DNA from: Rhodobacter xanthinilyticus
GTDB lineage: Bacteria; Pseudomonadota; Alphaproteobacteria; Rhodobacterales; Rhodobacteraceae
Length of the DNA: 64,000 bases
NCBI RefSeq assembly: GCF_001856665.1
Contig: NZ_CP017781.1
Location: 1,583,501 to 1,647,500, forward strand
Direction of reading: 5' to 3'
Made by a program: the position numbers and the translations under genes
In this document: one piece after another, positions 22,876 through 24,736 of the stretch
How the letters are laid out: the number at the start of each line of letters is the position of its first letter
How positions within the stretch are numbered: the first letter of the stretch is position 1
The notes under the pieces: model-generated
Seen by the model: the letters and a program-made list of their open reading frames with translations, nothing else
The model's database searches: none
What the model was told of the DNA's origin: nothing

Positions 22876-22900
22876 TTTTGCTGAGTTTTTGAAGGATGGG

Positions 22901-22935
22901 CGCGCGCGGTCGGGAGGCTGCGCGCGTTTTCTTTT
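22901..22935 (+). terminator. Terminator after mltG
   Basis: CGCGCG arms around a GC-rich loop are followed by TTTTCTTTT. It separates the fab-mltG transcript from the GTA cluster. Confidence 0.6.
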
Positions 22936-22987
22936 GGCGCGGCGGGGGCGGGGTTTTTGGAAAACGCCACAACCTCAGATTTAGCGC

Positions 22988-23016
22988 TTGACTTTGCGAA
23001 CGCTCTAAGGTAGAGA
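22988..23016 (+). promoter_or_regulatory. Candidate promoter of the GTA cluster
   Basis: TTGACT (22988-22993), a 17-base spacer and TAGAGA (23011-23016) form the most consensus-like promoter in the mltG-g1 gap. In R. capsulatus the cluster promoter needs the activator GafA (established). No GafA site can be named from sequence alone. Confidence 0.5.
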
Positions 23017-23040
23017 TATGACATGCTAGGAGAAGTGGGT

Positions 23041-23069
23041 AAGCGCCGCGGGTGACCGTCGGCGCTTTT
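23041..23069 (+). terminator. Terminator-like hairpin in the GTA leader
   Basis: Stem AAGCGCCG/CGGCGCTT (8 bp, 11-base loop) is followed by TTTT. It lies downstream of the candidate promoter and 46 bases before g1. If transcribed from 23020 onward it would act as an attenuator; otherwise it is a second terminator for mltG. Confidence 0.55.
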
Positions 23070-23115
23070 GCATTTCGCTCGTGCGGAACAAGCATGAGGA
23101 GCGGGTTCAAAGCAC

Positions 23116-23439
23116 ATGGATATGTCTTTCTCGGGTGGGGAAAGTCCTTCGGCCGATCTGCTGAAGGAAACGGAAGACCTTTATCGTGAGGTCGCTCAAG
23201 AGTTGGCGTTGGCGATGCAGGGGGTTCGCCAAGGCGATTTGACGGAAGCGAAGGCCGCCATGCAGGCGGTGAAGGATCTTCGCGCCGCATTTCAGATGGT
23301 CATGGATGAAAGGACACGCGTTGAAAAACTCCGCAGACAGGTTGCCGGGGTCGTCCGAGATTATGCTCTCGACTTCGACGCTGCCCGATCTGAGATCGGG
23401 CGCCGCCTGGCTCGCTTGCGCGAGGCAGGAGGAGGTTGA
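23116..23439 (+). CDS. GTA gp1, small terminase subunit-like
   Basis: 107 residues, mostly helical, charged and without tryptophan (LLKETEDLYREVAQELALAMQGV, DFDAARSEIGRRLARLREAGGG). It matches by position and character the R. capsulatus GTA g1 product, which acts as the small terminase with only weak DNA specificity. That fits random host-DNA packaging (family knowledge). It overlaps g2 by up to 134 bases. ATG 23116 and 23122 are both possible; GAGGAG at 23096-23101 is rather distant. Confidence 0.88.
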   Translation: MDMSFSGGESPSADLLKETEDLYREVAQELALAMQGVRQGDLTEAKAAMQAVKDLRAAFQMVMDERTRVEKLRRQVAGVVRDYALDFDAARSEIGRRLARLREAGGG

Positions 23440-24736
23440 CGAGTTTCTGGAGGGGCTGGAGGAGAATGCGCTTCTGGCCCTGCCGTGGATGTTCGAGTTC
23501 TGGGCATTGCCGCATCAGTTGCCGCCCCAGGGGGCCTGGAAAAGCTGGGTCATCATGGGGGGGCGCGGTGCCGGCAAGACGCGGGCCGGGGCCGAGTGGG
23601 TGCGCGCGCAGGTGGAAGGCGCGCGGCCGCTCGACCCCGGCAGGGCGCGGCGGGTGGCGCTGGTCGGCGAGACGTTTGACCAGGTGCGGGATGTGATGAT
23701 CTTCGGTGACAGCGGGATCATCGCCTGTTCGCCGCCCGACCGGCGGCCGGACTGGGAGGCGACCAAGCGTCGCCTCATCTGGCCCAATGGCGCGACCGCG
23801 CAGGCGTTTTCGGCGCATGAGCCGGAGGCGCTGCGGGGGCCGCAGTTCGATGCAGCCTGGGCGGACGAGCTGGCGAAATGGAAGAAGGCGGATGAGACCT
23901 GGGACATGTTGCAGTTCGCGCTGCGGCTGGGGGAGCATCCGCAGCAGGTGATCACCACGACGCCGCGCAATGTGGCGGTGTTGAAGGCGATCCTGAAGAA
24001 CCCGTCGACGGTGATGACCCACGCGCCCACGGATGCGAACCGCGCCTATCTGGCGGCGTCGTTTCTGGAGGAGGTGCAGGCGCGCTATGCGGGCACGCGG
24101 CTCGGGCGGCAGGAGCTCGAGGGGGTGTTGCTCGACGATGTCGAGGGGGCGCTGTGGACCACTGGCGCGCTCGAGGCGGCGCGGGTGGAGCGGGCGCCCG
24201 AGCTCGACCGGATCGTGGTGGCGGTGGACCCTTCGGTGACGGGGGGGGCGGCGTCGGACGAATGCGGGATCGTGGTCGTGGGCGCGCAGCTGCGCGGGCC
24301 GGTGCAGGAGTGGCGGGCGTTTGTGCTCGAGGATGCTTCGGTGCGCGGCAAGCCCACCGATTGGGCGCGCGCGGCGATTGCGGCGATGGAGCGACATGGC
24401 GCCGAGAAGCTGGTGGCGGAGGTCAACCAGGGCGGCGACATGGTGGAGAGTGTGATCCGGCAGATCGACCCGTTGGTGCCGTTCAAGGCGTTGCGGGCGG
24501 GGCGGGGCAAGTCGGCCCGGGCCGAGCCGGTCGCCGCGCTTTACGAGCAGGGGCGGGTCAAGCATCTCAAGGGCGGGCGGTTGGGCGCGCTCGAGGATCA
24601 GATGTGCAAGATGACCACGCGCGGCTTCGAGGGGCGGGGTTCGCCCGACCGGGTGGATGCGCTGGTCTGGGCTTTGACGGAGCTGATCCTCGAGCCCGCG
24701 GCGCATTGGCGGCGCCCGCAGGTGCGGGGGCTGTGA
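23306..24736 (+). CDS. GTA gp2, large terminase (ATPase-nuclease)
   Basis: 476 residues from ATG 23306; ATG 23363 is the alternative. Walker A-like GGRGAGKT at 85-92, Walker B region FDAAWADE at 181-188, and coupling motif ITTTPR at 216-221. The RNase H-like nuclease begins at VVAVDPSVTGG (Asp308), with late acidic residues near DRVDALVWAL. It packages about 4 kb of host DNA per particle in GTAs by a headful mechanism. The DNA-packaging core of the cluster. Confidence 0.96.
   Translation: MKGHALKNSADRLPGSSEIMLSTSTLPDLRSGAAWLACARQEEVDEFLEGLEENALLALPWMFEFWALPHQLPPQGAWKSWVIMGGRGAGKTRAGAEWVRAQVEGARPLDPGRARRVALVGETFDQVRDVMIFGDSGIIACSPPDRRPDWEATKRRLIWPNGATAQAFSAHEPEALRGPQFDAAWADELAKWKKADETWDMLQFALRLGEHPQQVITTTPRNVAVLKAILKNPSTVMTHAPTDANRAYLAASFLEEVQARYAGTRLGRQELEGVLLDDVEGALWTTGALEAARVERAPELDRIVVAVDPSVTGGAASDECGIVVVGAQLRGPVQEWRAFVLEDASVRGKPTDWARAAIAAMERHGAEKLVAEVNQGGDMVESVIRQIDPLVPFKALRAGRGKSARAEPVAALYEQGRVKHLKGGRLGALEDQMCKMTTRGFEGRGSPDRVDALVWALTELILEPAAHWRRPQVRGL

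Follow-up and report, generated by a model that had tools for sequence, protein, structure and literature searches.

The GTA operon of Rhodobacter xanthinilyticus is preceded by a promoter and a short leader with covarying hairpins and a T-run, and these parts are conserved and linked to GTA clusters in much of the family. We consider it probable, at roughly 0.6, that the promoter and a terminator in the leader hold the operon off by default and that GafA lets RNA polymerase bypass this terminator, in a manner resembling the pR'/tR' arrangement of lambdoid phages.

A promoter and a structured leader ahead of g1

The window, meaning the whole stretch of DNA that was analysed, comprises 64,000 nt of contig NZ_CP017781.1, and the leader occupies the gap between mltG and g1. 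Upstream lie mltG (YceG) and a ketoacyl synthase gene, while the genes downstream encode GTA terminase, portal, protease and capsid proteins. The name g1 is taken from PMC6854486; the gene is 75% identical to g1 of locus L011 (genome G010), and the relatives found with it bear names such as Sinirhodobacter, Gemmobacter, Phaeovulum and Rhodobacter. The following features were delineated:

22898–22929, + strand: terminator-like hairpin behind mltG (14 pairs, then TCTTTT)
22988–22993, + strand: −35 element TTGACT (TTGAC exact in 98 of 99 aligned leaders)
22996–23005, + strand: spacer motif GCGAACGCTC (consensus GCGnnCG[GC]TC), within the 17-base spacer between TTGACT and TAGAGA; candidate site at which the C-terminal part of GafA would load
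23011–23016, + strand: −10 element TAGAGA (T in 94/99, A in 96/99)
23022–23031, + strand: predicted transcription start at about 23023, placed by its distance to the −10 element, and conserved first nucleotides CATGCTAGGA
23023–23055, + strand: ten-codon frame MLGEVGKRRG (ATG at 23023, stop TGA at 23053–23055), judged not to be a gene
23032–23076, + strand: outer helix GAAGTG (23032–23037) / CATTTC (23071–23076), enclosing hairpin 1 and the T-run
23041–23069, + strand: hairpin 1 and T-run, intrinsic-terminator-like (AAGCGCCG at 23041–23048 / CGGCGCTT at 23060–23067; T-run TTTT at 23066–23069)
23078–23098, + strand: hairpin 2, CTCGTGC...GCATGAG (arms 23078–23084 and 23092–23098), highly conserved in sequence
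23116–23439, + strand: g1, first gene of the operon (ATG at 23116), homologue of the R. capsulatus small terminase gene g1
23306–24736, + strand: g2, GTA large terminase (Terminase_6N, 2.8e-30; Terminase_6C, 9.6e-16)

A first-pass annotation of this DNA had proposed the promoter TTGACT-17-TAGAGA, a stem with TTTT between promoter and g1, and a separate terminator candidate for mltG, and all three are indeed present; the outer helix and hairpin 2, which begins one base past the outer helix, were recognized in addition. The 94-nt leader folds with −42.2 kcal/mol (z = −4.43), and none of 200 shuffled sequences folded as well. Transcription arriving from upstream would be kept out of the gap by the hairpin behind mltG. 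A generic scanner listed neither the promoter nor hairpin 1; the promoter was passed over because the −10 rule of the scanner requires a T at the last position, and for hairpin 1 our guess is that the stem, which takes in two of the four Ts, was the obstacle. The GAGGAG that precedes g1 is partly taken up by the 3′ arm of hairpin 2 (window 23092–23116), so that hairpin 2 could also influence g1 translation.

Distribution of the leader in the family and beyond

The covariance model R1 was built from 33 aligned leaders and run on a survey set of 394 genomes of the family, approximately one per genus, with a match cut-off of E 0.01. The promoter lies outside the model, so that its conservation is independent of the search. 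R1 matched in 230 of the 394 genomes, with a single match in all except two of them (G281 and G287, two each). The GTA large terminase was found at 1e-60 in 346 of the genomes; R1 had no match in 164, and at least 116 genomes bearing g2 are thus unmatched.

We fetched 130 of the 230 leader loci for inspection. TTGAC is in place in 129 of them, a terminator-like hairpin is present in 128, and the terminase starts 270–406 nt downstream of the leader start in 128. One of the two exceptions to this spacing, L091, is a short locus (1676 bases, with the match at 1501), and the contig seems to end there. In the other, L147 (G243:C1:892662-893898), the leader and the g1 start are kept, the terminase is absent and, by eye, an apparent tail-end gene follows, which looks like a GTA cluster with its middle deleted; the same genome has a GafA match. 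All 28 viral contigs from IMG/VR that carry the leader pattern (L203–L230) also encode a GTA terminase, and they look like GTA clusters filed as viruses.

No convincing second copy of the leader was found in the R. xanthinilyticus genome, the next best hits having E values of 0.25 (BLAST), 4.46 (R1) and 0.23 (R2). An element serving a whole regulon was considered and rejected, the leader being single in its own genome. A search for a phage origin of the leader gave no match in 50,697 phage records. Among 289 genomes of the class, a second model, R2, gave four matches, three of which belong to the family; the fourth, L202, has no adjoining g2 and was taken as a chance match. Rfam yielded no match to the leader at gathering score and only a tRNA in the window, with weak hits of at best E 0.29 (22900–22976, other strand) and, over the leader, E 2.8.

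Promoter-like sites occur at some of 28 loci chosen for other orders (L253–L280, of which L253 is a family member), and behind these sites no hairpin with a T-run was found in this set, except for a weak one at L274, where the promoter score is not above that of shuffles. Four loci from other families of the class, L255, L264, L265 and L273, have TTGAC...ACG[GC]T and a similar first transcribed stretch ahead of the GTA terminase, without hairpin and T-run. Simple base shuffles scored as well in 0/100 (L255), 1/100 (L273), 12/100 (L264) and 24/100 (L265) cases, so only L255 and L273 stand out. Judged from these sequences, the leader terminator may have been added to a promoter block that already existed.

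The promoter and a conserved motif in its spacer

Positional conservation was assessed in alignment A3, which has 99 rows. From 100 sources, L016, L017, L018, L022, L024, L027, L051, L147 and L185 were left out and nine others were added; L054 was below the cut-off. Among the rows left out, L016, L017, L018, L027 and L051 pass the promoter and terminator tests, as do L147 and L185, which are among the 130 inspected loci.

In the 99 aligned leaders TTGAC lies 33–36 nt upstream of the leader start, and 34–35 nt upstream in 97. The spacer between the two promoter elements is conserved as well, with positions 2, 3, 6 and 7 of its motif (C, G, C and G) kept in 86, 92, 96 and 85 of the 99 sequences, respectively. 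As a promoter spacer is normally free to vary, a protein site is the natural reading of this motif. Behind the promoter, the first transcribed bases contain GCT in 99/99 sequences, and the C and A at the start are kept in 97/99 each. A sigma-dependent pause element in this conserved GCT[AG]G was considered and found not convincing, because 30 of the 99 leaders carry a G at position 2, where a −10-like element should have an A.

Covariation in three helices

When the 99 leaders were aligned with the covariance model, 97.8% of cells were paired and 13 of 19 pairs had changes on both sides. There were 116 double-change cells compared with 22 ± 3.9 in shuffles, and the signal was gone when the partner was slid. 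The outer helix had 98.0% of cells paired (99 sequences), with changes on both sides in four of six pairs; for the two halves of hairpin 2 the corresponding values were 97.6% and 97.3%, with two of six pairs changed on both sides. An alignment of this kind leans towards its own structure, and we therefore repeated the analysis without structure on 61 sequences outside R1, which share no row with it and were nonetheless found by R1. Aligned with MAFFT without structural information, these held-out sequences gave the same three helices in RNAalifold, 12 of 20 pairs having double changes.

By eye, the outer helix of L201 is wholly compensated, as GACACG/CGTGTC. At L241, likewise by eye, hairpin 1 is kept, the outer helix is kept as GACATG/CGTGTC and the T-run is lost. 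L022 (1328–1422) and L024 (1828–1921) keep hairpin 2 and the GCTAGAAG start, with both TTGAC and terminator gone, a pattern that suggests a separate role for hairpin 2.

Hairpin 1 has the anatomy of an intrinsic terminator

For the terminator we applied a fold-based rule that calls for a hairpin of at least 6 pairs with −12 kcal/mol or better, followed by a T-run. Such a structure is present in 96 of the 99 leaders, against 2.9 expected from dinucleotide shuffles; control stretches contained it in 11/99 cases upstream, where mltG terminators are possible, and in 2/99 and 3/99 cases inside g1. This rule superseded a stricter finder barring bulges, which had identified 24/99 leaders (1.35 expected; 13/99 upstream). 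The inner hairpin has a ΔG between −13.6 and −29.4 kcal/mol in all 99 sequences. The T-run starts 44–52 nt from the leader start and comprises at least four consecutive Ts in 92/99 leaders and fewer in 7/99. Opposite the last Ts the bases read GGC in 70 of the 99, and 18 further variants account for the remaining leaders; the Ts themselves are mostly constant, so pairing cannot be the sole reason for their conservation. The T-run is missing from L042 and L044, and L019/L067 (one genome) and L181 fail the terminator test.

We also looked at GTA genomes in which R1 had found no leader. In 40 of these, R2 gave weak matches in nine, seven of them beside g2; the other two, L237 and L238, have no adjoining g2. 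Among those seven and L201, a promoter followed by a terminator was found in 6/8, a count that has to be read with the matches having been chosen by a model that itself scores the hairpin. By eye, L234–L236 have promoter, hairpin 1 and T-run and no clear outer helix or hairpin 2. L231 and L201 have a terminator and, by the rule used, no promoter; L255 has a promoter-like site and no terminator. In 11 leader-negative GTA loci picked regardless of the leader, promoter and terminator are both present in four (L027, L240, L246 and L248), L244 comes near, and six, L241 among them, do not have the two together. Some GTA clusters thus manage without the promoter–terminator arrangement, and its parts do not always occur together.

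On these comparisons, the anatomy of a putative terminator is well supported, and termination is the core function that we favour for the leader.

GafA and its candidate site

In the R. xanthinilyticus genome, a frame of 394 codons upstream of lipA has a DUF6456 match (2.4e-62) and a helix-turn-helix; several helix-turn-helix models and sigma-70 region 4 matched the same frame below their cut-offs. Its identification as GafA rests on the place beside lipA given in the available text of PMC6363796 and on the domain. GafA was matched at 1e-5 in 362 of the 394 family genomes and is more widespread than the leader, so that co-occurrence of the two proves nothing.

According to the available sections of Fogg (2019; PMC6363796), only one of five R. 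capsulatus probes, reaching from 76 to 125 bp upstream of g1, binds GafA. L011 is the only locus with all four published R. capsulatus primer parts that were looked for (primers from PMC6854486); judged by this match L011 is R. capsulatus, so that the archetypal GTA would have the same leader. In L011, the GafA-bound stretch consists of the spacer motif, the −10 element, the predicted start and the first bases up to GGTGGGCA; hairpin 1 begins immediately beyond its end.

Sherlock and Fogg (2022; PMC9638019), as far as their available text goes, placed the C-terminal part of GafA at that probe, observed binding of an N-terminal fragment to two probes that flank this site, and presented a model of omega-dependent activation; that portion of the text mentions neither a terminator nor antitermination. 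In the accessible part of PMC11150451, the exact bases bound by GafA are said not to have been mapped to date, and the authors suggest that GafA may antiterminate as GafZ does.

Comparison with known antitermination systems

The closest described system is the antitermination of the GTA cluster of Caulobacter crescentus by GafYZ (Tran and Le 2024; PMC11150451, from the part of the text available). Like the arrangement described here, it concerns a GTA structural cluster with an element between −35 and −10 (a candidate site in our case) and a terminator downstream (putative in our case), and GafZ matches the C-terminal part of GafA. The GafZ element in the promoter spacer is given as GCGCCCG-CTGGCGC and GafZ likely acts in complex with NusA, NusG and NusE (PMC11150451). 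GCGCCCG occurs in the spacers of L038 and L046, but our spacer consensus lacks the right half of this palindrome. The two systems differ in that the Caulobacter terminator consists of three 150-bp repeats behind gtaT, the first gene, and is not in the leader, that the start codon is at +251, and that a weak −35 (AATCAT) needs GafY and IHF, whereas the leader described here has a perfect TTGAC and a single hairpin with T-run about 45–50 nt after the start.

In lambdoid phages, the late promoter pR' is followed shortly downstream by the terminator tR', which is under the control of Q, with the structural genes behind. The order of promoter, protein site in the spacer (a candidate site in our case), early terminator and structural genes is the same as in the leader. 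We know of no counterpart to the covarying outer helix and the second hairpin in the lambdoid pR' system. The location of the Q site in the pR' spacer is as given in PMC11150451, which also reports, in the sections available, no relation of GafZ to Q.

The first-pass annotation had regarded an attenuator or antitermination step at this place as not known to be described. This part needs correction, as GafZ has been published as an antiterminator of the Caulobacter GTA cluster (PMC11150451), whereas a leader terminator or structured leader RNA in Rhodobacterales GTAs was not found in the literature searched, which covered few subscription papers. What is known is thus antitermination of a GTA, and what appears to be new is the leader terminator with its covarying leader RNA in Rhodobacterales. 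Going by its title, a 2025 eLife report by Korotaev et al. reportedly deals with antitermination of the Bartonella GTA, which would be alike in having GTA genes under antitermination and different in being chimeric and of diverse phage origin.

How the leader may act

According to the reading that we prefer, RNA polymerase with sigma-70 would start at about 23023 and, without an activator, would tend to stop at the T-run some 44–47 nt later, releasing a short leader RNA. GafA would bind the promoter between the −35 element and the first transcribed bases and board the polymerase, and a polymerase carrying GafA would pass the terminator and transcribe g1 and the genes behind it, in the manner of GafZ in Caulobacter and Q in lambdoid phages. 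Three steps of this scheme are inferences: hairpin 1 would act as a terminator in the living cell, the promoter would be active in the absence of GafA, and GafA would overcome the termination. As a counterpoint, GafA has been published as an activator acting through the omega subunit (PMC9638019, in the text available), and the −10 element is poor, so that initiation may itself depend on GafA; there would then be little for the terminator to do.

A plain terminator leaves the covarying outer helix and the sequence-conserved hairpin 2 unexplained. For the outer helix to form, the polymerase must already have left the T-run behind, and both features therefore hint at a function of the RNA made on read-through, perhaps of the nut or put type. 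One alternative therefore takes the leader RNA as an antitermination element of this type, whose stem-loops bind polymerase or a GafA/Nus complex and confer resistance to distal terminators. The two helices are mostly one base apart, hairpin 2 is conserved with CGG at the loop edge, the outer helix would serve the read-through RNA, and L022 and L024 retain hairpin 2 after losing the promoter motif and the terminator. The putRNAs of HK022 are likewise about 70 nt long with two stem-loops, and putL is situated just downstream of its promoter (PMC9378689, available part); compared by outline only, the leader resembles putL, from which it differs in that its stem 1 carries a T-run. The probable association of GafZ with Nus factors is in line with this alternative too (PMC11150451). 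Against it, neither the outer helix nor hairpin 2 is clear by eye in L234–L236, where promoter, hairpin 1 and T-run are retained, GafZ is described as loading via a DNA element in the spacer (PMC11150451), and the draw of 289 genomes contained no leader outside the family bar one match taken as chance. We regard an RNA antitermination element as unlikely.

We likewise regard it as unlikely that the hairpins only stabilize the 5′ end of the GTA mRNA or set g1 translation, with a GafA-driven start as the sole control. Action of GafA through the omega subunit (PMC9638019) and the overlap of hairpin 2 with GAGGAG agree with such a role, and a long mRNA made in stationary phase would be well served by a stable stem-loop at its 5′ end; neither the T-run behind a stem of free sequence in 92/99 leaders nor the fixed spacing to the promoter is predicted by it.

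Two further explanations are very improbable. The inverted repeat could be a DNA site for the N-terminal part of GafA and not an RNA hairpin, in view of the two flanking probes to which the N-terminal fragment binds (PMC9638019, available text), but a DNA site would conserve sequence, and in the stem complementarity is kept while sequence is not. Hairpin 1 could also be a spare terminator for mltG read-through, terminators in gaps being common, or could mark the 3′ end of a small RNA acting in trans, and our main reading, too, predicts a short leader RNA that is terminated here; however, mltG has its own terminator-like hairpin, the promoter lies between, and hairpin 1 keeps its distance to this promoter.

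An attenuator in which hairpin formation depends on whether the ten-codon frame is translated is the least credible option: the frame exists in the window, but the A of its ATG is approximately at the expected transcription start, across the 99 leaders the start codon position is ATG in 61, AAG in 33 and another triplet in 5, the frames in the 63 sequences with a start codon are 5–147 codons long (six have at least 138 codons, enough to run through g1), and there is no space for a ribosome site upstream of the predicted start. The tiny frame was rejected as a leader peptide on this comparison. An attenuator made of RNA only is also unlikely from the sequences, because only a few, almost constant nucleotides precede the hairpin, whose stem differs between species, so that no conserved antiterminator segment could pair with the stem. 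The first-pass suggestion of an additional control point ahead of the GTA genes is supported in the form of a terminator-like element that is conserved in much of the family and anchored to a promoter; its ten-codon frame exists at the stated place, yet is not conserved.

Implications for GTA control

GTA release kills the producing cell, and the operon is silent in most cells. Holding the GTA operon off by default through promoter and leader terminator, with bypass by GafA, remains our preferred reading. As a more speculative extension, to which we lend limited credence, the leader may represent a new cis-acting RNA family of domesticated phage particles, which would act as a terminator for unmodified polymerase and, once read through, as a platform for loading or locking GafA and Nus factors, and whose leakiness would help set the fraction of producing cells. 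If this dual role were true, one element would be both stop and pass for the GTA operon. The R. capsulatus reporter that revealed a small producing subpopulation begins, according to the available text of PMC3423380, about 500 bp upstream and extends as far as the start codon of g1, and so includes the leader. A perfect TTGAC followed by a terminator would mean that silencing of the archetypal R. capsulatus GTA takes place after transcription has begun, and the proposed role of GafA as an antiterminator would become testable at a defined site.
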